Part shown: one piece after another, positions 19,272 through 33,500 of the stretch
Numbering within the stretch: position 1 is the first letter of the stretch
How the letters are laid out: every line of letters begins with the position of its first letter
Position numbers and translations under genes: made by a program
Notes under the pieces: model-generated
Told to the model about the DNA's origin: nothing
The model's input: only the letters and a program-made list of their open reading frames with translations
Databases searched by the model: none
Assembly (NCBI GenBank): GCA_020073705.1
Contig: JAIQES010000001.1
Location: forward strand, 62,001 to 126,000
Direction: 5' to 3'
From: Terriglobia bacterium
GTDB taxonomy: Bacteria > Acidobacteriota > Terriglobia > Acidiferrales > UBA7541
Length of the DNA stretch: 64,000 bases

Positions 19272-19754
19272 GTGGTGGAAACCAAGAAAACTCAAACCGA
19301 AAGATGCACAACAAAAATCGTTTCGCTCGCGCGGCTCAGGAGGCAACATCGGCTCATTCCTTGGATTTCGCTGCTCTTGCTGGTCGCGATGATCGTTCCG
19401 GCGCTATATACATTCGCACAGGGGCCTCGCGTGATCCAGCTCACCGCCGACCATGATAACAAGTACAAGGTTCCCGGGCAGAAGGTGCCCGTCATCACGG
19501 TGAAAGCGAAGGAGGTAATTAAGTTTAACATCACCGGGCATAAAGGAACCGAGTCGGACCCGAAGTACCCCGGCTGCGTTCACACCTTCACCATCAAGGA
19601 ACTGAAGGATCAGGGTTGGGACGTATGCCTGAAGGAAGGGATGAATGAATTTGTCCTGGTCGCGCCTAGCAAGCCGGGCGAATACAAGATCGAATGTATG
19701 GATAAATGTGGCAAAGGCCACGATGACATGAATACGAAAATGATCGTCCAATGA
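19272..19754 (+). CDS. Membrane-anchored CuA-type cupredoxin
   Basis: 160 residues: a basic N-terminus, one transmembrane helix or signal anchor (IPWISLLLLVAMIVPALYTF, about 29-48), then a single cupredoxin domain outside the membrane. The metal ligands match a binuclear CuA centre as in cytochrome oxidase subunit II and N2O reductase: His104 (CVHTF), then Cys142-x3-Cys146-x3-His150-x2-Met153 in CMDKCGKGHDDM. GTG at 19272 or 19275 follows GGGAGGAA. It is the first gene of an operon with an iron-sulfur and an NrfD subunit, so it probably carries electrons at the outer face of that complex. No oxidase subunit I is adjacent. Confidence 0.85.
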   Translation: MVETKKTQTERCTTKIVSLARLRRQHRLIPWISLLLLVAMIVPALYTFAQGPRVIQLTADHDNKYKVPGQKVPVITVKAKEVIKFNITGHKGTESDPKYPGCVHTFTIKELKDQGWDVCLKEGMNEFVLVAPSKPGEYKIECMDKCGKGHDDMNTKMIVQ

Positions 19755-19879
19755 AAATGATCGTCACAGGGTGAGGAGACTATGTGTCGATATCACCCTG
19801 TGACGATGACATGAATATGAAAATGATCGTCCAATGAAAATAGTCGTCACAGGGTGAGGAGGCTGTATGTCGATATCAC
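19721..19879 (+). repeat. 83-bp tandem duplication between cupredoxin and iron-sulfur genes
   Basis: The unit starting CGATGACATGAAT at 19721 recurs at 19804, a shift of 83 bp; the matched parts run 19721-19796 and 19804-19879 with few differences. Each copy carries the 3' end of the cupredoxin gene, a GGGTGAGGAG ribosome site and a start-like ATG. Copy 1's ATG (19782) reads only MCRYHPV before a stop; copy 2's ATG (19867) opens the iron-sulfur gene. Confidence 0.9.
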
Positions 19880-20685
19880 GCCGAGGTTTCATGCAGGGAA
19901 CCGGAGGCGCCTTAGTTGCTTCCTTAGCTGCTGCCAAAGAAACTGCAGCGCAGATTTTTCACCACGAGTTGCCGGCCCGCTCGGTCGCGCCCACCAATCA
20001 GAAGTGGGTGATGGTAATCGACCTGACAAAATGCGACGGCTGCGAGGACTGCACGAGAGCTTGCATTGCCATGCATTTTGCACCCCCGATGCAGGAATGG
20101 ATCAGGGTCTATGAGGTGGAGGACAACCCGGCTGCCGGGCCCTATTTCCTGGCTCGGCCCTGCATGCAGTGCGACAACCCTCCTTGCGTGCGTGGATGCC
20201 CGGTGGGAGCCACCTTCAAACGCACCGACGGAATTGTCATAATGGATCAGGATCGCTGTATCGGTTGCCGGAACTGCATGGCCCAGTGTCCCTACTCAGC
20301 GCGTTCCTTCAACTGGGCCGAACCGCCCCACACGCGGGAAGAGCTTTCGGTACCATACTCGACGGATTATAACTATCCCCATCGCAAAGGTGTGGTCGAG
20401 AAGTGCATCTTCTGCCCGCACCTGTTGCGCGCGGGAAAACTGCCGGCCTGCGCCGCGAAGTGCACCATGGGCGCCATTTATTTTGGCAACGAATATGAGG
20501 ACGCAGTCACAAACAGCAAGGGGGAAACCATCCAGTTCTCCAAGGTCACCGAACGGGGCGCAAGCTTCCGGCTGCTTGAGGAACTGGGCACGAGCCCTCG
20601 TGTTTACTACCTACCTTCCGCCAATCGCAAGTATCCCGGGCCGAATGAACTTAAAGAAAAAGAGGCTGCGGAGAAGAAGTTGTGA
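19867..20685 (+). CDS. Tat-exported ferredoxin subunit with four [4Fe-4S] clusters (DmsB/NrfC/PsrB type)
   Basis: 272 residues. The N-terminus has a twin-arginine signal (SRRGFMQ) with a short Ala-rich hydrophobic region, so the folded protein is exported with its clusters. Four cysteine quartets are seen: C56/59/62/66, C99/102/107/111, C131/134/137/141 and C180/183/195/199, the pattern of the electron-wire subunits of DMSO, polysulfide and nitrite reductases. The stop overlaps the NrfD start (GTGA at 20682-20685). It should link the NrfD quinone site with the CuA protein. A fragment of its 5' part lies at 19029-19091. Confidence 0.93.
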   Translation: MSISRRGFMQGTGGALVASLAAAKETAAQIFHHELPARSVAPTNQKWVMVIDLTKCDGCEDCTRACIAMHFAPPMQEWIRVYEVEDNPAAGPYFLARPCMQCDNPPCVRGCPVGATFKRTDGIVIMDQDRCIGCRNCMAQCPYSARSFNWAEPPHTREELSVPYSTDYNYPHRKGVVEKCIFCPHLLRAGKLPACAAKCTMGAIYFGNEYEDAVTNSKGETIQFSKVTERGASFRLLEELGTSPRVYYLPSANRKYPGPNELKEKEAAEKKL

Positions 20686-22064
20686 TTTCGAAACGAGAAG
20701 CCAACTTGCTGCGTTCCGTCACCGAGACGTCGTTGGCATTCTATCTGTGGATCGGGGCCTTATCCTGCGTCGCACTTTGGGGGCTCTACGCCTACATCCA
20801 TCAGATTCGCACTGGACTGATCGTCACCGGAATGCGCGACCAAAATTCCTGGGGCATGTACATCACGGACTTTGTCTTCTTCATCGGGATTAGTCACGCC
20901 GGAACGCTGATCTCAGCCGTTCTTCGGGTCACCAATGCGGGGTGGCGGCGTCCGATCACCCGGTTGGCCGAAGGTATCACGGTGTTCGCCTTGTGCATCG
21001 GCGGGCCCATGGTGATCATCGATATGGGCCGTCCGGACAGGATGTTTTATTTATTCTACCACGGACGCATCCAATCCCCGATCTTCTGGGACGTTCTCGG
21101 GGTGAGCACGTATCTGACCGGCTGCATTATTTATCTCTACGTTCCCATGATTCCGGATCTCGCTTTCCTGGCGCAGCGGGAGGAGTTCGGACAGCGGCGC
21201 CGGAGATTTTACCGCGCACTTTCGCTCGGATGGACGGGCAGCGTTGAGGAACAGCACCTGCTGGAAAAATGCATTTCGGTATTGGCGATTTTCATCATCC
21301 CGCTGGCGATTTCGGTGCATACCGTTGTTTCATGGATCTTCGCAATGACGCTGCGGCCCGGCTGGAATAGTAGCATCTATGGCCCCTACTTTGTCGTGGG
21401 CGCAATCTATTCCGGGGCGGCGGGCGTCGTGCTTTCGATGTACATCCTTTGGCGGGTGTTTCACCTGGAAGACTATCTCGAGCCCATCCACTTCCGGAAT
21501 CTGGGATTGCTGCTGCTCGCATTCTGCTTGATATATCTTTACTTTAACATCAACGAATACTTGACCACGGGATACAAGGTCCAGGGGCCGGAGAAGCTCT
21601 TGGTGCACGGGCTGTTCTTCGGTAGTTTCTCTACGTTGTTCTGGACAGTCCAGAGCATGGTCATCATTGTCCCGTTCATCTTGATGACAGCTGTCCTTGC
21701 CCTGAAACCCTTGCGGAGGTTCACCCCCTCCGTACTCGCGGTGGCATCTTTCTTGATTGTCGTTGGGGCTTGGGCCAAGCGCTATCTCATTATCATCCCC
21801 ACGCTTGCCACTCCATATTTGCCGAATCCAAAGCTCCCATATGATTGGCTTCACTATCGTCCCACCTGGGTGGAATGGTCCATCACTGCTGCTGCCACGG
21901 CTGTATTCCTGCTTATCTATTCGCTGTTCGCCAGCATATTCCCGATGGTTTCTATCTGGGAGACACGCGAAGATGACGCGGCGCGGGAAGCGGCACACGC
22001 CATGGCGGCTCCTCCTCAGCCTGCTCCTCAAGGGTTAGGCACAATCCGGCCGTGGTCTAAATGA
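20682..22064 (+). CDS. NrfD/PsrC-family integral membrane quinone-interacting subunit
   Basis: 460 residues with about ten transmembrane helices. NrfD-like features include the N-terminal AFYLWIGALSCVALWGLYAY, FVFFIGISHAGTLISAVLRV, DMGRPDRMFYLFYHGRIQSP and SVHTVVSWIFAMTLRPGWNS. Family members oxidise or reduce menaquinol at the periplasmic side and exchange electrons with a four-cluster ferredoxin; long versions resemble ActC of alternative complex III. GTG start overlaps the preceding stop by 4 bp. With no molybdopterin subunit nearby, the direction and terminal partner of electron flow are unknown. Confidence 0.92.
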   Translation: MISKREANLLRSVTETSLAFYLWIGALSCVALWGLYAYIHQIRTGLIVTGMRDQNSWGMYITDFVFFIGISHAGTLISAVLRVTNAGWRRPITRLAEGITVFALCIGGPMVIIDMGRPDRMFYLFYHGRIQSPIFWDVLGVSTYLTGCIIYLYVPMIPDLAFLAQREEFGQRRRRFYRALSLGWTGSVEEQHLLEKCISVLAIFIIPLAISVHTVVSWIFAMTLRPGWNSSIYGPYFVVGAIYSGAAGVVLSMYILWRVFHLEDYLEPIHFRNLGLLLLAFCLIYLYFNINEYLTTGYKVQGPEKLLVHGLFFGSFSTLFWTVQSMVIIVPFILMTAVLALKPLRRFTPSVLAVASFLIVVGAWAKRYLIIIPTLATPYLPNPKLPYDWLHYRPTWVEWSITAAATAVFLLIYSLFASIFPMVSIWETREDDAAREAAHAMAAPPQPAPQGLGTIRPWSK

Positions 22065-22624: not shown

Positions 22625-23968
22625 ATGGCTCAGACCAATCAGAACATCGATGTAGCAGACCTGATCGAAAACCAGAAGTTCAACTGGTTTCGAATCTCCA
22701 TTCTCGTTTGGGCGTGCGCAGTCATGTTCATCGAAGGCTATGACATGCAGGTGGTCTCCTACGCGGCGCCCTCGATTATCAAGACGTGGCATGTCAGCAA
22801 AGCTTATTTTGGACCGGTTTTTGGTTTCGGCTTGTTCGGATACATGCTGGGTGCCACGATGCTCAGCAACCTGGCTGACCGGTTTGGGCGAAAGAAACTA
22901 ATTGTTGGAGGGGGCCTGCTGTTCGGCGCATTTACGTTTGCAGCCGCATACTCCTCGTCGGTTACGGAATTGCTCTCTCTTCGATTTATCGCCGGACTTG
23001 GCCTTGGCTGTTCTATCCCAAGCGCCATCGCACTAACTGCAGAATACGCGCCCTCCCGAATACGTGCGACGACAATCAGTGTGATATTCGTTGGGTATAA
23101 TATTGGCTCCGCCGTGGGCGGATTTATTGCCGCAAAGTTCATTCCGGCGTTTGGCTGGCCATCTATATTTTATCTTGGAGGGATCGCACCGATCGTTCTC
23201 AGCCTCATTTTGGTTTTCACGTTGCCGGAATCGGTCCGCTTCCTCGCATTGAAGCAAGGCCGCCCCGATCGTGTCGCTGCGATCCTTGCCAAGCTCACAG
23301 GGCAAACTTTCGCACCCGGCGCGCAATTCATCCTTCGGGAGGAAAATCAACCGGGCCTTCCCGTCAAGCATCTGTTCACCGAAGGCCGGGCTATGATGAC
23401 TTCCCTGCTTTGGCTGGCTTTTGTGGCGAGCCTCTTCGGGCATGTTTTCTTGACGAGCTGGCTGCCCACGGTTCTCGAAAGCTCTGGGCTATCGCTCGCG
23501 AACGCCGTCATGGCGGGCGCTTTGCTTCAGGCCGGCGGCGGAGTCGGATGTTTGTTCATTGGCTGGCTTCTGGACAAGCGTGGCATTATCGCCATTGCCC
23601 TTGCCTTCGCCATTGCCACTCCACTGACCGTAATGATTGGTTTCTTGGGTGCGTCCGCCGCGCTGATTATGACATTGGTGTTCGTCCTGGGGATCTGCAT
23701 TCTGGGAGGACAGGTAGGGTTGAACACCGTTTCCGGAACCATTTATCCGACATATATTCGCTCGACCGGCGCCGGCTGGGCGTTCGGAGTGGGCCGGATC
23801 GGATCGATTCTGGGACCTGTCATCGGCGGCTTGTTGATCACCGTGCTGCCGACGACGACGGTCTTCCTGTGCGCTGCAATTCCCGTGCTCTGCTGCGCTG
23901 GCGCTACGTATTTTCTCGCGCGTGTGCCCTTGGCCCAGCCGGCCCGCGAGGCTCCGGCAGTTTCTTAG
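22625..23968 (+). CDS. Major facilitator permease, aromatic acid:H+ symporter (AAHS) type
   Basis: 447 residues, 12 predicted transmembrane helices. AAHS/PcaK-like signatures are the charged helix-1 motif FIEGYDMQVVSYAAPSI, the loop motif LADRFGRKKLIVGGG, LTAEYAPSRIRAT and RSTGAGWAFGVGRIGSILGP. AAHS members import aromatic carboxylates such as 4-hydroxybenzoate or protocatechuate; the actual substrate here is inferred only. It precedes a class II aldolase on the same strand and is paralogous to the permease at 28583. Confidence 0.9.
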   Translation: MAQTNQNIDVADLIENQKFNWFRISILVWACAVMFIEGYDMQVVSYAAPSIIKTWHVSKAYFGPVFGFGLFGYMLGATMLSNLADRFGRKKLIVGGGLLFGAFTFAAAYSSSVTELLSLRFIAGLGLGCSIPSAIALTAEYAPSRIRATTISVIFVGYNIGSAVGGFIAAKFIPAFGWPSIFYLGGIAPIVLSLILVFTLPESVRFLALKQGRPDRVAAILAKLTGQTFAPGAQFILREENQPGLPVKHLFTEGRAMMTSLLWLAFVASLFGHVFLTSWLPTVLESSGLSLANAVMAGALLQAGGGVGCLFIGWLLDKRGIIAIALAFAIATPLTVMIGFLGASAALIMTLVFVLGICILGGQVGLNTVSGTIYPTYIRSTGAGWAFGVGRIGSILGPVIGGLLITVLPTTTVFLCAAIPVLCCAGATYFLARVPLAQPAREAPAVS

Positions 23969-24063: not shown

Positions 24064-24858
24064 GTGAAAAAGGCGAATGTTAATAAATCCGGGAAGAGCA
24101 CCCGCGCCCGCAAGGTGACGGAGAGAGCGCGTCTTATTAGTGGCGCCTCTCCCAATGTGGCAACTGTTGAGGAACTAGTCACAGCCAATCGCATCCTCTA
24201 TGCGCAGTCGGTACTTGATGGCTACGGCCACGTCAGTGCGCGTCATGACACAAAGGCACATCGATTTTGGATGTCACGTAGCATGGCGCCTGGTCTTGTT
24301 ACCCCCGGCGACATCATGGAGTTCGATCTAGACGGGGAACCTGTCGATGCTCGCGGACGCGGAACGTACGCTGAGCGTTTTATTCATAGCGAAATTTACC
24401 GGCGCCGTCCGGACGTGAATGCAATTGTTCACAGCCATTCTCCCGCCGTTATTCCTTTCGGTGTGACGAATGTTCCTCTGAGGCCCATCTTTCATATGAG
24501 CGGCTTTCTAGGGACCGGCGTTCCTGTCTTTGAAATCCGGGAAGTCGCGGGGGATACAGACATGCTGGTTCGAAATCCCGCACTTGGTGCCGCACTCGCC
24601 CTTCGTCTGGATGACAAACCCGCGGCGCTGATGCGCGGTCACGGATCGGTAACTGTAGGTATTTCCTTGCCGCAGGCTGTTTTTCGCGCGGTCTACCTCG
24701 AGGTAAATGCCCGGCTGCAGTCAGAGGCCATGAAGCTTGGGAGCATCAATTTTCTGACGTCCGAGGAAGCAAGGTTGGCGAGCGCCATGAGCGATATGCA
24801 CTTGTCACGGCCGTGGACGCTTTGGAAGTATGAGGTTACGCGAAGGAATCCAGCATAA
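24064..24858 (+). CDS. Class II aldolase/adducin family protein (possible dihydroxyphthalate-type decarboxylase)
   Basis: 264 residues from GTG 24064, five bases after GGGGG (GTG 24058 is also in frame). The metal site of the fold is present: Glu110 region (RFIHSEIYRRRPD), His123-x-His125 in VHSHSPAVIPF, and His193 in MRGHGSVTVG. The family includes sugar-phosphate aldolases/epimerases and also 3,4-dihydroxyphthalate decarboxylases. The AAHS permease upstream and the dihydroxyphthalate-decarboxylase-like gene downstream make a decarboxylase or retro-aldol role on an aromatic or oxo-acid the better guess. Confidence 0.82.
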   Translation: MKKANVNKSGKSTRARKVTERARLISGASPNVATVEELVTANRILYAQSVLDGYGHVSARHDTKAHRFWMSRSMAPGLVTPGDIMEFDLDGEPVDARGRGTYAERFIHSEIYRRRPDVNAIVHSHSPAVIPFGVTNVPLRPIFHMSGFLGTGVPVFEIREVAGDTDMLVRNPALGAALALRLDDKPAALMRGHGSVTVGISLPQAVFRAVYLEVNARLQSEAMKLGSINFLTSEEARLASAMSDMHLSRPWTLWKYEVTRRNPA

Positions 24859-24891: not shown

Positions 24892-25881
24892 TCACGTCTT
24901 GAAGAATTTGCCGAGTTCCCGCGGAAAGAGTTCCTCGATCCGCACTTCGCGATTTGTGACGCCTTGTTCATAGCAGTACTGCAGAAACGCCTCGAGTGTG
25001 CGCCGATTGGGTTCGATCCCATAAGGCCAGCAGTCGTCCCCAAATACTTTCTGCGCTTCGAGCGCCGCATGGTGGGACCACGCGATCGGGATCCGCGAGG
25101 TCGCCGATCTCAAGATATTCCTCAGGCTGTTCGTCTTGGCTTCTTCGAAGGCCTTGAACAGATTCATCGCAATCCAAGGATGGCGGTCGAGCGTCTCCGC
25201 CTTAATGACGATTGCGTGCATGATAGGAAAGACGCCCGTTTCACGATAGTACGCCTCCTCAAGGACACGATAGCCGGGCCATAAGCGGACGATGCGTGGA
25301 TCGTGGGTCACAAAAGCGTTCGGCTCGCGGGCTGAAATGATGGCGTCGAGATCACCGGCCAGCAACATGTCGTTGAGCGATCGGTCTGAGACGCGCTCGA
25401 TGGCCACGCCGCTCGGCAGCGACAATTTCACTTTCTCAATCCGTCCGGGCTCGTTGACGCCGGCCTGCACCCAGCGAATGTCGCGGAGTAAAACGCCACA
25501 CTGATGCTGGAGATAGGCGCGGGCATAGATGCCGGCGGTCTGCGCCCACTCTGGGATGCCGACGCGCCGTCCCGCAAGGTCACTCGGGCCAGCGATGCCA
25601 GCGCGCGGTGCAACATAAAAAGAAGATTGACGAAAGACACGCGATGGAAATACCGGGATGGCGCGAAACGGCGGCGCACCCGTTCCGACAAGTGAGACGT
25701 ACTTTCCCATGGAGAACTCTGCGATGTCCCATTCGGTGAACGACACCATCCGAAAGAAAATCTCTTCAACGGGGAGCTCGTTAGTGATGAGAGTAATGCC
25801 CTCGGCGCGAACGCGCCCTCGCACGAGATCGCTCACATGATCGTAATAGCTCATGGCCAACGAGAGTCTAATGTCCGACAT
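24892..25881 (-). CDS. 4,5-dihydroxyphthalate decarboxylase-like protein
   Basis: 329 residues with a periplasmic-binding-protein type II fold but no signal peptide, so cytosolic. Segments typical of the 4,5-dihydroxyphthalate decarboxylase (Pht5) family are SYYDHVSDLVRGRVRAEGI, PVEEIFFRMV, FPSRVFRQSSFYV, GRRVGIPEWAQTAGIYAR, TGVFPIMHAIVIK and DCWPYGIEPNRRTLEAFLQY. Members decarboxylate aromatic dicarboxylates, but many are annotated only by similarity to solute-binding proteins. It is convergent with the aldolase gene and lies downstream of the ThDP enzyme and cytochrome on the same strand. Confidence 0.82.
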   Translation of the reverse strand: MSDIRLSLAMSYYDHVSDLVRGRVRAEGITLITNELPVEEIFFRMVSFTEWDIAEFSMGKYVSLVGTGAPPFRAIPVFPSRVFRQSSFYVAPRAGIAGPSDLAGRRVGIPEWAQTAGIYARAYLQHQCGVLLRDIRWVQAGVNEPGRIEKVKLSLPSGVAIERVSDRSLNDMLLAGDLDAIISAREPNAFVTHDPRIVRLWPGYRVLEEAYYRETGVFPIMHAIVIKAETLDRHPWIAMNLFKAFEEAKTNSLRNILRSATSRIPIAWSHHAALEAQKVFGDDCWPYGIEPNRRTLEAFLQYCYEQGVTNREVRIEELFPRELGKFFKT

Positions 25882-25934: not shown

Positions 25935-26342
25935 CTACTTCAGCGCTGGAATGCTGTCTGCCTTAGGTGGCTGAGGCAGCGATTGCAGGAAAGCATAGAT
26001 ATCCGCCAGGTCCGCGTCTGAGGCGACTTTGCTGGTGTAGGGCGGCATCTGTCCCGTCGGCTGGCGGATGTACTTGACCAGCTCCCGGAACGAAATCGGG
26101 TTTGGGCCGAGGCGCGTTTTGCCTTCAGGCGTGCCCTCAGCCTGATGTCCATGGCATTCAAAACAGCCGTAGCTGGTAAACAGCTTCTTGCCGTTTTGGC
26201 TGTTGCCCGCGGGGGAATCGTCAGCTTTCGGAGCCGGACTCACCCTTTGGGCTCTAGCATGGGAGGGCGCGAGGACCATCAGGGCCGCAACGGTCATCAG
26301 GCCCAGAAAGCGCACGATGTGGTTGTCCATGTTCGCACTCAT
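25935..26342 (-). CDS. Exported mono-haem cytochrome c
   Basis: 135 residues: signal peptide (LGLMTVAALMVLAPSHARA), then a class I cytochrome c domain with the haem-binding CFECH (Cys60, Cys63, His64) and axial Met99 in TGQMPPY. The ATG at 26342 shares one base with the upstream stop (TGATG), so it is translationally coupled to the Tat-exported ThDP enzyme. The pairing suggests it is that enzyme's periplasmic electron acceptor. Confidence 0.9.
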   Translation of the reverse strand: MSANMDNHIVRFLGLMTVAALMVLAPSHARAQRVSPAPKADDSPAGNSQNGKKLFTSYGCFECHGHQAEGTPEGKTRLGPNPISFRELVKYIRQPTGQMPPYTSKVASDADLADIYAFLQSLPQPPKADSIPALK

Positions 26343-28261
26343 CAACGGGGCTCCGTGACTGCATCTATCAGTGCCGGCTCACCGCGCTTGACTACTTCGA
26401 TCGCTCGCCGGAGGGCTGGCCCAAGATCCTTAGGATCGGTAATCGGCCCCTGAGCGTAAACGCCCATGCCCTGTGCAACTCTTGCAAAGTCGATATTGGG
26501 ATCCTGGATCGTGGTTCCAATACCGGCGCGAGTGATGCCGCGGTTGTGCCGGTTGGCCATGCGTTGAATGTGCATGACTTCCTGGTGATACGCACGATTG
26601 TTGTGCATGACCGACAGAAGCGGAATATGGTGGTGGGCCATAGTCCACAAAATGCCTGGGGCATACATCAGGTCCCCATCAGTCTGGATACTGACGGATA
26701 GTCTGCCGTGCTTCTTGTTGGCAAGCGCGGCCCCCGCTGAAGCTGGCGCGCCGTATCCCACGCCCGCTCCGCCTGAGCCGCCGATGAACTGGTAGTGCTT
26801 ATCAAAGGACCACATCCGGAGAGGCCAGCGGCTCGCATGCCCTACGTCCGACACTAATGACCAATCCTCGTTCTTGATCTGCGCCCACATCTCCGCCGAT
26901 AGACGGGGAATGGTGATCGGGCTAGTGTCCCAGCCGTAAGTCGCCTGGCTGCGCGTCTGCACCAGAGCTTTCTGGTATGCATCAGCCAGCTTGCTACCTC
27001 GGTCTTGCAATGTCCTCTTGCGATCGTTGGTGATTGAGCGCTTCACGGCCTCAAGCAGCGAAGGGAGGGTCGTTTCCGCATCGCCTGCGATGGCCAGATC
27101 AACTTCCGGATAGCGCTGGATATCCTGATGATTGCCTTTGACATCCAGGTCGGTGGCGCTGATGCTGATCAGCTTCGCACCGTCTCGGGTTGTTGGCTTC
27201 GATGTGCGGTGCAACTGATCTCGCATCGAGTGGACAGTGCCCCAAAAGTCAGTCAACTCGAGCCCCAAAATCACATCTGCATCTGCCATAAGTGCGCGGC
27301 TGCGCTGCGTATGATTCAGGGGATGACGCGTCGGGAAGTTCAGCCGTCCCTCCTGATCGATGACCGGCGCCTGCAGCGCTTCAGCAAGTCCGATCAGGTG
27401 CATCATGCCGGCTGGGGTGCGCGCCGCGCGGTCGGCGATGATGACCGGATTTTCCGCTGCAACGAGAAGTCGCGCCGCCTCAGCTACCGAGCCCGACTCA
27501 CCTTGTGGCGGTGTCGCCAGCGCCAGCTTGGGTATGTGGAATTTGGCGTCTGGTGCGATCGGACCTTCTTGCAATTCGGAATCCGCCACCAAAAGCACCG
27601 GCATCGTCGGCGTGGTCATCGCAATCTTATAGGCCCGCACAGCGGACTCGGCAAAATGAGGAAGCGAAATCGGGAGATCATCCCATTTCAAGAAGTCGCG
27701 GACCATCGCCGCCAAATCCTGGGCGCTGTGATCCCATTCCACTCCGGGACGGCGCACCGTGGCGTCAATCGTGTTACCGGCGATGAGGTAGACCGGCACC
27801 CGGTCGCAATAGGCATTGAAGATCGCCATCGATCCATGCTGTAACCCGACATTGCTATGCACGAATACGCACATCGGCTTGCCTTCGATCTTTGCATAGC
27901 CATGGGCCATGCCGATCGCCGATTCCTCATGGCAGCAGGTAATGAACTCCGGGGCCTGATTGCCGCCGTAGTTGATCACCGATTCGTGCAAACCCCGAAA
28001 ACTCGAACCCGGATTGGAGGCAATATATTCGAAGCCCAGAGACTTGAGCACATCGACCATGAAATCGGACCCCGAGCGATCCGTTGTCAACACATCGACG
28101 TTCGAGGGATCGACCTCCTTAGGCATCAGCGGGGCGGAAGCGGATTGAACCGGCGTGGGTTCCTTCGCCCTGATTGCCGTGGTGCTCGCCACAAGCCCCG
28201 CCACACCTCCGGCAGCACCCTTCAAGAATTTTCGACGATCAACGGTCAGTTTTCTTGCCAT
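26342..28261 (-). CDS. Tat-exported thiamine-diphosphate enzyme (acetolactate synthase/benzoylformate decarboxylase family)
   Basis: 639 residues. Unusually for this normally cytosolic superfamily, the N-terminus is a twin-arginine signal: DRRKFLKGAAGG followed by VAGLVAST. The three-domain POX/ALS/BFD architecture follows: Pyr domain with ThDP-activating Glu in CCHEES (112-113) and AHGYAKIEGKP; a central domain with AARLLVAAENPVIIAD and ILGLELTDFWG; PP domain with QTDGDLMYAPG (529-531) and VMHNN (554-555), the GDG...N metal/diphosphate motif. Relatives decarboxylate 2-oxo acids or oxidise pyruvate. Coupling to a cytochrome c gene suggests oxidative decarboxylation in the periplasm (inference). 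Confidence 0.9.
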   Translation of the reverse strand: MARKLTVDRRKFLKGAAGGVAGLVASTTAIRAKEPTPVQSASAPLMPKEVDPSNVDVLTTDRSGSDFMVDVLKSLGFEYIASNPGSSFRGLHESVINYGGNQAPEFITCCHEESAIGMAHGYAKIEGKPMCVFVHSNVGLQHGSMAIFNAYCDRVPVYLIAGNTIDATVRRPGVEWDHSAQDLAAMVRDFLKWDDLPISLPHFAESAVRAYKIAMTTPTMPVLLVADSELQEGPIAPDAKFHIPKLALATPPQGESGSVAEAARLLVAAENPVIIADRAARTPAGMMHLIGLAEALQAPVIDQEGRLNFPTRHPLNHTQRSRALMADADVILGLELTDFWGTVHSMRDQLHRTSKPTTRDGAKLISISATDLDVKGNHQDIQRYPEVDLAIAGDAETTLPSLLEAVKRSITNDRKRTLQDRGSKLADAYQKALVQTRSQATYGWDTSPITIPRLSAEMWAQIKNEDWSLVSDVGHASRWPLRMWSFDKHYQFIGGSGGAGVGYGAPASAGAALANKKHGRLSVSIQTDGDLMYAPGILWTMAHHHIPLLSVMHNNRAYHQEVMHIQRMANRHNRGITRAGIGTTIQDPNIDFARVAQGMGVYAQGPITDPKDLGPALRRAIEVVKRGEPALIDAVTEPR

Positions 28262-28582: not shown

Positions 28583-29953
28583 GTGATTAGCGAACCGCGC
28601 GCCCTCACTGTAACCGACCTGATCGACCGGCGGCCTCTGAGCCGCTTTCAAATCACTACAATCGCGTTATGCGGCTTGGTGATGGTTCTAGATGGCTTCG
28701 ACGCCCAGTCGATCGGATTCCTTGCGCCTTCCATGGCTGAGACATTGGGAGTTCCTCTAAAGGCGTTCGGGCCGGTTTTTGCTGGCAGCTTGATCGGATT
28801 GATGGCCGCTTCGATGGCGATGGGACCTGTCGCTGACCGTTGGGGGCGCAAATGGTCGGTCGTGTTCTCCACGCTCACGTTTGCGATCTTCGCGATGCTT
28901 ACAGGTCGGGCGAACACCTTCCACGAAGTCGTGATTTTCCGCTTCTTGACCGGGCTCGGGCTTGGCGGGTCAATGCCCAACGTGGTCGCTCTCACGTCCG
29001 AATACGCTCCTAAGCGTCTGCAGCACGTTCTTGTTACAACGCTCTTTTGCGGGATGCCGCTTGGCGCGTTGATCGGCGGACTGGCAAGCTCGGTGATGAT
29101 CCCAATATGGGGATGGCGATCGGTTTTCTACCTCGGCGGAATATTGCCGTTGGTGGTTTCGCTCGTGTTAATCAAAGCGCTTCCTGAGTCGGTCCGTTTT
29201 CTGGCTGTACGTGGCGGTGACCCACAAAAGATTGCGAAGATCATGGCGCACGTTGCGCCCGAGCTTGCAAATGCGCCTGTCACCAGCCTTGTTTCTCCCG
29301 ACCGGCGGCACGAGGGCCTGCCGGTCAAGCACCTTTTTACCGAAGGGCGCGCGTTTGGGACGATCTTGCTGTGGGTCCCGTACTTTATGAATCTCCTGAT
29401 TATATATTTCATCGTGAGCTGGTTGCCCGCACTGCTCCGGCAAGCTGCAATGCCCATCTCAGCAGGAGTCGCGGCAATTTCCATGTTCAGTTCCGGCGGG
29501 ATCATCGGATCTGTTGTGCAGGGACGGCTGATGAATGGATTTGGCGCCTATGCGGTTCTCCTAACAGAGTTCGTGTTGTCTACCCTGTTTATCGGCTCAC
29601 TGGCTTTCCTAACCGTTTCGTTTCCGCTCATGATGACGGTGACGTTCATTTTGGGTTGCTCGGTCCAAGCTTCGCAGTCAGGCCTCAGCGCGCTTGCCGC
29701 AAGTTTCTATCCGACGGCGATACGGTCCACGGGTGTTGGCTGGGCGTTGGGAGTTGGCCGAATCGGTTCCATCGTTGGCCCTGTGCTCGGCGGCGTCATG
29801 TTGTCACTCGATTGGAACGTGCAGCAGATATTCCTTGCGGGAGCGATCCCCGCGTTGTGTGCCGGGGCTGCGGTTCTTTTGAGCAGCCGCCTTCGCGGCA
29901 ATGCGACTGCCTATCGTCCGGAACCTGATCCGGACCGGTCAGAAGCTGTGTAG
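28583..29953 (+). CDS. Major facilitator permease, AAHS type (second paralogue)
   Basis: 456 residues, 12 predicted transmembrane helices; GTG start after GGAGAGG. It has the same motifs as the permease at 22625: VLDGFDAQSIGFLAPSM in helix 1, VADRWGRKWSVVFS, LTSEYAPKRLQH and RSTGVGWALGVGRIGSIVGP. Both share the cytoplasmic-loop segment LPVKHLFTEGRA. The paralogues flank the decarboxylase/ThDP/cytochrome genes and may import two related acids or substrate and product. Confidence 0.9.
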   Translation: MISEPRALTVTDLIDRRPLSRFQITTIALCGLVMVLDGFDAQSIGFLAPSMAETLGVPLKAFGPVFAGSLIGLMAASMAMGPVADRWGRKWSVVFSTLTFAIFAMLTGRANTFHEVVIFRFLTGLGLGGSMPNVVALTSEYAPKRLQHVLVTTLFCGMPLGALIGGLASSVMIPIWGWRSVFYLGGILPLVVSLVLIKALPESVRFLAVRGGDPQKIAKIMAHVAPELANAPVTSLVSPDRRHEGLPVKHLFTEGRAFGTILLWVPYFMNLLIIYFIVSWLPALLRQAAMPISAGVAAISMFSSGGIIGSVVQGRLMNGFGAYAVLLTEFVLSTLFIGSLAFLTVSFPLMMTVTFILGCSVQASQSGLSALAASFYPTAIRSTGVGWALGVGRIGSIVGPVLGGVMLSLDWNVQQIFLAGAIPALCAGAAVLLSSRLRGNATAYRPEPDPDRSEAV

Positions 29954-31487: not shown

Positions 31488-31682
31488 GGATGCTTATTCT
31501 AAGGCACGGACAGCACAGTTGTTCCTTTGAATAGTTGCTTTATCACGACTTCGTGTTCGCGAGAGTGCCATGCAGACGCGCGGCAAACTGGGCTGCCACA
31601 TTGTATGCCAAGGCCAGCAGAGGTATATTGGGCGTCAGCCGGAAGTGAACTTGGAAATCTCGGATTAGGAGGCATTCCTGTG

Positions 31683-33500
31683 ATGAAGCGATGTTTGCTG
31701 ATTTTGGCCGCTCTGATCGTAATACTTTTGCCCGCAGCTGATTCCGCGTTTGCGCAGACCACGGTAGGTGTCCGGGCGTTCGAGCAATACTGCGCGACCT
31801 GCCATGGGAATCCCAGTAGCAAAGTGGCGGCGCCTGATGAGTCGCAGCTCCGGAGATTGACGTCGGAAGAAATTGAAGCGGCGTTTGGGAAGGCGCCGCA
31901 CACGAACTTTCAGGGGCTGACGGACGAACAGAAGCTTCGAATCACGCAGCGGCTTGGCGGCCGGACGCCTGGCATCGCCCAGATCGCGGACGCAAGACGG
32001 ATGTCGAACCACTGTTCGAGCAATCCTCCGATCAGCGGTCTGTCCGCTAAGCCCTCATGGAACGGCTGGGGGAATGACGCCACGACGAACGCGCGCTTTC
32101 AACCGGCGAAAGCCGCTGGCTTATCGGCCGATCAGGTGCCCCGATTAACGCTGAAATGGGCCTTTGGCTTCCCGGGCGCCGAGGAAGTCTACGGCCAGCC
32201 GACCATCGCGGCGGGACGCGTCTTCATCGGCGTGGATACCGGCGCTGTGTATTCGCTGGACGCGGCTACCGGATGCGTCTATTGGTCGTTCCAAGCGGAC
32301 GCAGGAGTGCGCAACGCCATCAGCATCGGTCCGGTGAAAGGACAAGGCTCCGCGAAGTACGGAATCTACTTTGGCGACATAAGAGCAAATGTTTACATGC
32401 TCGATGCAACTACCGGCAAACTTCTCTGGAAAGTCAAAGTGGAGGACCATCCCGTTGCGCGCGTCACCGGCGCACCGACGCTCTATCAGGGCCGACTTTA
32501 TGTTCCGGTCGCGTCCTCGGAGGAGAGCACAGCAGGCTTAAGTACGGTTTATCCCTGCTGCACGTTTCGCGGCAGCGTAGTAGCGCTGGACGCCAACACG
32601 GGCCGCAAGATCTGGAAGACTTACACAGTTCAAGAGGCGCCCAAACCCACCAGAAAGACCTCCAAGGGCATACAGCTCTGGACGCCAAACGGCGCTGCCG
32701 TGTGGAATTCGCCGACAGTTGACACCAAGCGCCATGCTCTCTATATCGGGACAGGAGATGCCTACCTCGAACCAGCGGCGAAGACAACCGATGCCATCGT
32801 GGCTTTGGATATGACCACCGGCAAGATTCTTTGGGCGCATCAAGACACGGAGAATGACGCGTGGCTGGTCGGTTGCGGATCTCAATATTCCTCAGAAAAC
32901 TGCCCGAAGGATTTAGGTCCCGATTATGACTTTGGTTCCTCACCCATTTTGCGGGCTCTGCCGGACGGGCACAGGATCTTGGTAGCCGGACAGAAAAGCG
33001 GAATGGTCTGGGGTCATGATCCCGATCAAGAGGGAACCGTACTCTGGAAAGCTCAGCTCGTCCAAGACCTGGCACTCGGTATCATTACCTTCGGCGGGGC
33101 GGCGGACGAGCAGAACGCATATTTCGGATTGAAGACAGGCGGTGTGGCTGCGGTGCAATTGACAACGGGCGATAAACGATGGTTCACACCTGTGGAAGCG
33201 CCGCCAGGCGCACCCGTAGGCGGTCAGAATGCCGCGCTAACCGTCATTCCGGGCGTCGTCTTTTCGAGCGGGTGGGATGGCGTCGTGCGCGCGTTTGCGA
33301 GCAACGATGGTCACCTTCTCTGGCAATACAACACGATCCGCGATTTCCAGACGGTGAACGGAGTTACAGCGAAAGGCGGCTCAATGGGAGCTCCGGGCCC
33401 GACGGTCGCTGATGGCGTGCTCTTCGTAGGGTCAGGATACCTCTTCGGCGCGTGGGGAGGAACCCCTGGCAACGTGCTGCTTGCATTCTCCGTCCAGTAG
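31683..33500 (+). CDS. PQQ-dependent dehydrogenase with N-terminal cytochrome c domain
   Basis: 605 residues, exported (signal LLILAALIVILLPAADSAFA). Cytochrome c domain first, with CATCH (Cys37, Cys40, His41), then a PQQ beta-propeller with repeated blade motifs such as VYSLDAATGCVYWSF, VYMLDATTGKLLWKV and VVALDANTGRKIW. The adjacent cysteines Cys291-Cys292 (VYPCCTF) recall the vicinal disulfide of quinoprotein alcohol dehydrogenases. The layout resembles polyvinyl-alcohol dehydrogenases, so oxidation of an alcohol with haem as acceptor is likely; substrate unknown. ATG 31683 or GTG 31680 follows AGGAGG. No PQQ biosynthesis genes are in the window. Confidence 0.88.
   Translation: MKRCLLILAALIVILLPAADSAFAQTTVGVRAFEQYCATCHGNPSSKVAAPDESQLRRLTSEEIEAAFGKAPHTNFQGLTDEQKLRITQRLGGRTPGIAQIADARRMSNHCSSNPPISGLSAKPSWNGWGNDATTNARFQPAKAAGLSADQVPRLTLKWAFGFPGAEEVYGQPTIAAGRVFIGVDTGAVYSLDAATGCVYWSFQADAGVRNAISIGPVKGQGSAKYGIYFGDIRANVYMLDATTGKLLWKVKVEDHPVARVTGAPTLYQGRLYVPVASSEESTAGLSTVYPCCTFRGSVVALDANTGRKIWKTYTVQEAPKPTRKTSKGIQLWTPNGAAVWNSPTVDTKRHALYIGTGDAYLEPAAKTTDAIVALDMTTGKILWAHQDTENDAWLVGCGSQYSSENCPKDLGPDYDFGSSPILRALPDGHRILVAGQKSGMVWGHDPDQEGTVLWKAQLVQDLALGIITFGGAADEQNAYFGLKTGGVAAVQLTTGDKRWFTPVEAPPGAPVGGQNAALTVIPGVVFSSGWDGVVRAFASNDGHLLWQYNTIRDFQTVNGVTAKGGSMGAPGPTVADGVLFVGSGYLFGAWGGTPGNVLLAFSVQ

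Follow-up and report, generated by a model that had tools for sequence, protein, structure and literature searches.

A Tat-leader ThDP-dependent enzyme and an adjoining cytochrome c as a possible periplasmic oxidase system in Acidobacteriota and Proteobacteria

The window, a stretch of 64,000 nucleotides, belongs to the 3.79 Mb genome of a Terriglobia bacterium. It encodes a ThDP-dependent enzyme with a twin-arginine (Tat) leader, directly followed by a cytochrome c. The two genes and their neighbours were as follows:

22625-23968, forward strand: aromatic-acid/H+ symporter-like MFS transporter (TIGR00895 and PcaK as top matches, below the cut-offs)
24100-24858, forward strand: class II aldolase / dihydroxyphthalate-decarboxylase-like protein (PF00596)
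24892-25881, reverse strand: 4,5-dihydroxyphthalate decarboxylase homologue, the next gene on the same strand (PDB 9jp7, E 3.8e-69)
25935-26342, reverse strand: exported monohaem cytochrome c, 135 aa (PF13442/PF00034, leader, CxxCH)
26342-28261, reverse strand: Tat-leader ThDP-dependent enzyme, benzoylformate-decarboxylase-like, 639 aa (Pfam, sequence and fold relatives)
28160-28261, reverse strand: twin-arginine signal peptide of the ThDP enzyme, residues ~1-34 (sequence)
28583-29953, forward strand: a further MFS transporter of the aromatic-acid/H+ symporter-like kind, transcribed divergently from the ThDP gene (profile matches)

The N-terminus of the ThDP enzyme reads MARKLTVDRRKFLKGAAGGVAGLVAS. 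An n-region, MARKLTVD, is followed by RRKFLK and then by the hydrophobic h-region GAAGGVAGLVAS, matching the (S/T)-x-x-R-R-x-F-L-K-like motif of Tat substrates. Relatives with 59-80% identity also carried a Tat leader. Among 109 scored leaders (homologues with at least 40% identity and a scorable leader), RR and F were present in all 109, L in 104 and K in 79, while the leader outside the motif positions was variable. Since these leaders had been preselected with the loose pattern RRx[FLMIV], the invariance of F is a finding, whereas that of RR follows partly from the selection. The pattern was missed by only two of the 108 clade members with at least 50% identity, and both seem truncated, L029 by the end of its contig and L068 by a break in the reading frame. 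An earlier note on this DNA had proposed a Tat signal, to be refuted by close homologues without the RR; the leader is a textbook one, RRxF was invariant across Acidobacteriota and several proteobacterial groups, and no close homologue truly lacked the RR. Export of the enzyme via Tat is strongly supported by these comparisons. The genome encodes TatC (G000:C38, E 6.5e-65), a cytochrome-c-assembly protein and COX1 of a haem-copper oxidase.

The ThDP enzyme matched the Pfam families TPP_enzyme_N, TPP_enzyme_M and TPP_enzyme_C (PF02776/PF00205/PF02775), each above the gathering cut-off, and its PYR, central and PP domains follow the order of benzoylformate decarboxylase (BFD). BFDs were its nearest solved relatives both by sequence and by fold (4k9q: Z 37.9 over 515 residues, rmsd 2.5). 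The earlier note had assigned it to the POX/ALS/BFD type: the superfamily stands, on the Pfam matches, but the likeness to pyruvate oxidase gave way to the BFD branch. Pyruvate-oxidase identity was rejected, as sequence, profile and fold all favoured BFD. The top NCBIfam match was the PRK08327 thiamine pyrophosphate-requiring protein (NF006203; 250.9 bits, below its cut-off of 456); the BFD model (NF005485) scored 147 bits against a cut-off of 493, and the pyruvate oxidase model (NF006377) 83 bits against 742. The best fold matches were FAD-free BFDs; absence from the match list is uninformative about an FAD-binding central domain as in pyruvate oxidase. Three active-site features could be placed on the DNA:

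27926-27928, reverse strand: catalytic Glu112 of the H-E-E motif, aligned with the BFD active-site Glu
27857-27859, reverse strand: His135, aligned with BFD His70
26597-26680, reverse strand: ThDP/Mg binding motif DGD...NN (D528, G529, N554, N555), from conservation

E112 was kept in all exported (81/81) and all cytosolic (32/32) relatives, H135 in 80/81 and 32/32, and S86, aligned with BFD Ser26, in 75/81 exported relatives. The ThDP/Mg motif did not vary in the exported clade and varied hardly at all in the cytosolic relatives. BFD His281 was not kept: the aligned residue was Thr342, in a region of loose alignment. Shortly after the ThDP site come several residues specific to the exported clade, e.g., His559, Glu561 and Met563, and the substrate or acceptor may therefore not be the one used by BFD and the cytosolic sisters. 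The enzyme has the fold of BFD (P. putida 1bfd and the 4-hydroxybenzoylformate decarboxylases 6qsi and 7orx; Z ~37, 22% identity), with the catalytic Glu, the Ser26 and His70 equivalents and the ThDP motif, but differs in its Tat leader, its cytochrome c in place of an aldehyde dehydrogenase, the Thr for His281 and the clade-specific YHQE stretch at residues 558-561. On this sequence evidence it probably works like a BFD-type decarboxylase, which is not to say that it is a BFD.

The cytochrome gene encodes a hydrophobic (Sec) leader and a single CxxCH (CFECH), and matched Cytochrome_CBB3 and Cytochrom_C in Pfam. The product has a class I cytochrome c fold, with haem residues Cys60, Cys63 and His64 and Met99 as the putative distal axial ligand, all four of which were invariant across 49 partner cytochromes. 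Its ATG shares one A with the TGA stop of the ThDP gene (TGATG; CGTTGATGAGTGCG), just as the earlier note had described. The start is probably this ATG at 26342 rather than the TTG at 26345 chosen by the ORF finder. In homologous loci (L numbers), an exported CxxCH ORF lay 3' of the ThDP gene, on the same strand and within 200 nt, in 80/101 exported relatives versus 1/30 cytosolic ones (Fisher p 1.6e-14, a guide only, as the sequences are related and the sampling unequal) and in 12/579 other genes of the same loci. The spacing was mostly -4 to +16 nt. All three ThDP paralogues of the source genome (L001, L002/L119, L003/L120) had a cytochrome. The counts against the cytosolic clade and the background genes exclude chance adjacency and an annotation artefact. 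Close homologues without the cytochrome neighbour were a further refutation named in the earlier note; most kept it, and the partnership that the note had surmised is, at the level of gene pairing, strongly supported. Among the ORFs read, no enzyme-cytochrome gene fusions (Rosetta-stone evidence) were noticed; where an open frame was long, it seemed to reflect an extension upstream. The 3' same-strand cytochrome was absent in 21 of the 101 exported members. At two loci (L038:9952-11412 and L039:9804-11285), an alpha/beta-hydrolase (Abhydrolase_10, PF20091) takes the cytochrome's place, and a DUF6152 gene lies further upstream of the ThDP gene.

In a tree built by a quick method, the 81 exported sequences, all with a Tat leader, formed a single clade (SH-aLRT 99), with the 33 nearest leaderless sequences outside it. 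The leaderless homologues (rhizobia, Cupriavidus, Novosphingobium pCAR3 and others; 33-43% identity) form a sister clade that shares the core residues and some neighbours, for example class II aldolase and dihydroxyphthalate-decarboxylase-like proteins. They almost never have the cytochrome; TTT/ABC transporters or an NAD aldehyde dehydrogenase lie nearby in its stead. Within 1.3 kb, 6/21 cytosolic versus 1/86 exported relatives had such a dehydrogenase (p 1.8e-4). NAD aldehyde dehydrogenases adjoin the leaderless genes of Thioclava, Cupriavidus, Terrarubrum, Novosphingobium KA1, Acidovorax and S. mexicanum. Enzymes oxidising 2-hydroxy acids also occur beside leaderless genes, and in the cytosolic clade L144 has an FMN hydroxy-acid oxidase and L139 a 2-hydroxyacid dehydrogenase. 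This is the layout of a route from 2-hydroxy acid through 2-oxo acid and aldehyde to acid. In Acidovorax carolinensis (L146:3929-5736), the leaderless enzyme is annotated as two overlapping genes for its N- and C-terminal halves. A second clade of Tat-leader ThDP enzymes (L133, L134, L136, L137, L034), with 25-29% identity to the query, was placed near the tree base, its exact place being unsure owing to long branches. Several of its genes adjoin an exported cytochrome of their own, of another type and usually with two CxxCH. L138 was also listed with this distant family.

The pair was present in Acidobacteriota, Gammaproteobacteria (L101), Rhodospirillales (L102, L104), Caulobacteraceae (L107), Rhodobacteraceae (L111), Hyphomicrobiales (L113), Caballeronia (L115) and Novosphingobium (L116), the last two being the cultured isolates Caballeronia zhejiangensis and Novosphingobium KACC 22771, a spread over Acidobacteriota and Gamma-, Alpha- and Betaproteobacteria that rules out a single-lineage curiosity or contamination. 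The nearest named relatives were Acidobacteriota (Candidatus Acidiferrum). The module occurred in 30/101 sampled genomes of near relatives and in 16/396 across the phylum; its distribution was patchy, often with several copies per genome. The genome collection held at least 560 related stretches, in part of which leader and cytochrome were checked.

The neighbouring genes support aromatic acids as a substrate theme, though no single compound. The 4,5-dihydroxyphthalate decarboxylase homologue was again beside the ThDP gene in L007/L200, L036 and L040, and class II aldolase relatives occurred near exported (L088, L093) and cytosolic (L140) ThDP genes. The aldolases near exported genes in L093 (14512-15318) and L088 (7185-7724) have a Sec-like leader; those of the window and of Cupriavidus (L140) do not. 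L006/L035 carry an orthologue, 75% identical, of the second MFS transporter beside an 80% identical ThDP gene. L040 encodes a protein with fused abhydrolase and carboxymuconolactone decarboxylase domains, L109 tannase-family proteins and L115 Rieske dioxygenases. Assigning a substrate from operon content was abandoned, the neighbours being too diverse for one substrate. In the Caulobacteraceae operon (L107), the gene order is FMN 2-hydroxy-acid dehydrogenase (PF01070, E 4e-108), ThDP enzyme, cytochrome c; the first two have Tat leaders, and 8 nt separate the end of the dehydrogenase gene from the ThDP start. By its gene content, this operon reads as a mandelate-type route with export signals, and the likeness to the mandelate pathway lies in this 2-hydroxy-acid dehydrogenase preceding the ThDP gene in one lineage.

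From the leader, the catalytic residues, the pairing and the presence of Tat, cytochrome c maturation and haem-copper oxidase genes, all seen in the sequence, we infer a periplasmic two-component oxidase system of ThDP enzyme and cytochrome c. It is the best explanation, and one we consider somewhat probable. The ThDP enzyme would fold and take up ThDP and Mg in the cytoplasm, with active sites at the subunit interfaces as in its relatives, and would be exported by Tat already folded; the cytochrome would travel separately through Sec. In the periplasm, the enzyme would attack a 2-oxo acid, probably an aromatic one, releasing CO2 and leaving a ThDP-bound enamine. The cytochrome would accept two electrons, one by one, from the ThDP-bound intermediate and pass them on to a cytochrome-c-accepting terminal oxidase, hydrolysis of the acyl-ThDP would yield a carboxylic acid, and the adjacent aromatic-acid transporters could import it. 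Indirect evidence favours a 2-oxo acid: the BFD-like fold and residues, the FMN 2-hydroxy-acid dehydrogenase of L107, and the 2-hydroxy-acid and aldehyde dehydrogenases near the cytosolic sisters. NAD is not available in the periplasm; an aldehyde dehydrogenase that is near cytosolic genes and rare near exported ones is what one would expect of a cytochrome standing in for aldehyde dehydrogenase and NAD. One-electron acceptors such as ferricyanide oxidise ThDP enamines in standard assay chemistry, which makes electron transfer to ferric cytochrome c plausible. We know of no natural case in which a haem protein directly takes single electrons from a ThDP intermediate, and this counts against the proposal, as do the members lacking the 3' cytochrome, the replacement of His281 by Thr342 and the diverse neighbourhoods.

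The enzyme might instead oxidise aldehydes, with ThDP adding to an (aromatic) aldehyde, the cytochrome oxidising the enamine and the acid being released without decarboxylation, as the second step after PQQ alcohol dehydrogenases. PQQ-dehydrogenase genes were found in 15 of ~100 loci, L077, L097 and L110 share the run ThDP enzyme, cytochrome, second cytochrome, PQQ dehydrogenase, and a PQQ-type CxxCH protein is encoded about 3.4 kb from the ThDP gene in the window. We consider this route unlikely, since most loci have no PQQ gene, the partner in the L107 operon is a 2-hydroxy-acid rather than an alcohol dehydrogenase, and the closest fold relatives are 2-oxo-acid decarboxylases. Equally, a non-redox periplasmic decarboxylase or lyase could form an aldehyde, or cleave an acyloin or diketone, with the cytochrome serving another dehydrogenase that oxidises substrate or product. 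The nearest folds (BFD, benzaldehyde lyase, glyoxylate carboligase) are all non-redox, the FMN dehydrogenase of L107 could itself feed the cytochrome, and some exported members lack one; yet in most loci the cytochrome directly adjoins the ThDP gene with no other dehydrogenase adjoining, and the leaderless sister clade has no cytochrome, which makes this reading, too, rather improbable. Finally, the leader might not work in export, or might tether a protein facing the cytoplasm, with the cytochrome adjacent as a by-product of shared regulation. This would suit the general knowledge that BFD/ALS/POX-type enzymes are cytosolic but is very improbable, given a constant RR and F in an otherwise variable leader whose presence tracks that of the exported cytochrome.

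To our knowledge, all characterised members of the BFD/ALS/POX superfamily are cytosolic, and the acceptors in oxidative ThDP chemistry are flavin, Fe-S or lipoate. Known pyruvate oxidases are cytosolic flavoenzymes using quinone or O2; those of E. coli (PoxB) and lactobacteria share with the present enzyme the ThDP superfamily and the oxidative decarboxylation proposed here. p-Cresol methylhydroxylase, a flavocytochrome that oxidises an aromatic compound with the help of a small cytochrome c of its own, offers a works-like analogy, and its cytochrome subunit (1diq chain C) was among the fold neighbours of the partner cytochrome (Z 9.6, 71 residues). It differs in being an FAD enzyme with an unrelated catalytic subunit, and we claim no membership. 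In open-access full texts, neither a ThDP enzyme exported by Tat nor a pairing of ThDP enzyme and cytochrome was found described. A new class of respiratory dehydrogenase, in which a c-type cytochrome would directly oxidise the Breslow intermediate of a periplasmic ThDP enzyme free of flavin and Fe-S, is a tentative proposal that we hold to be possible but somewhat doubtful.

The results suggest that a widespread two-gene module would break down keto acids or similar compounds outside the cytoplasm and deliver the electrons straight to respiration. If so, the family, found on hundreds of genome contigs, would be an added entry point of carbon oxidation into respiration and would account for a gene pair, so far unassigned, that recurs in soil bacteria that are abundant but poorly cultivated. 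The system makes direct electron donation from a ThDP intermediate to haem testable, and Tat's task here would be the export of an enzyme with its active site between subunits. The ThDP-cytochrome system may also be part of larger extracytoplasmic aromatic routes in Acidobacteriota and relatives, in which hydroxy-acid dehydrogenases, amidohydrolases and aldolases exported by Tat or Sec may stand beside it.

Amidohydrolase_2 proteins with a Tat leader were encoded near exported ThDP genes in L036 (1722-3239), L088 (3014-4111), L093 (10355-11437) and L104 (16612-17619), and glyoxalase/dioxygenase-fold proteins with a Tat leader in L089 and L103; both are a hint of a wider extracytoplasmic aromatic catabolism. 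At 19272-22064, the window encodes in a row a cupredoxin-like protein, a Tat-leader 4Fe-4S protein and an NrfD membrane protein, with no evident catalytic subunit. A fuller complex in L201, which likewise adjoins a ThDP-cytochrome pair, comprises a five-haem protein, a molybdopterin-type Tat protein, an FeS protein and an NrfD that is 43% identical. The PQQ-dehydrogenase-type protein of the window (31671-33500) is a beta-propeller protein with its CxxCH at the N-terminus; the source genome has about three PQQ genes, this one included.
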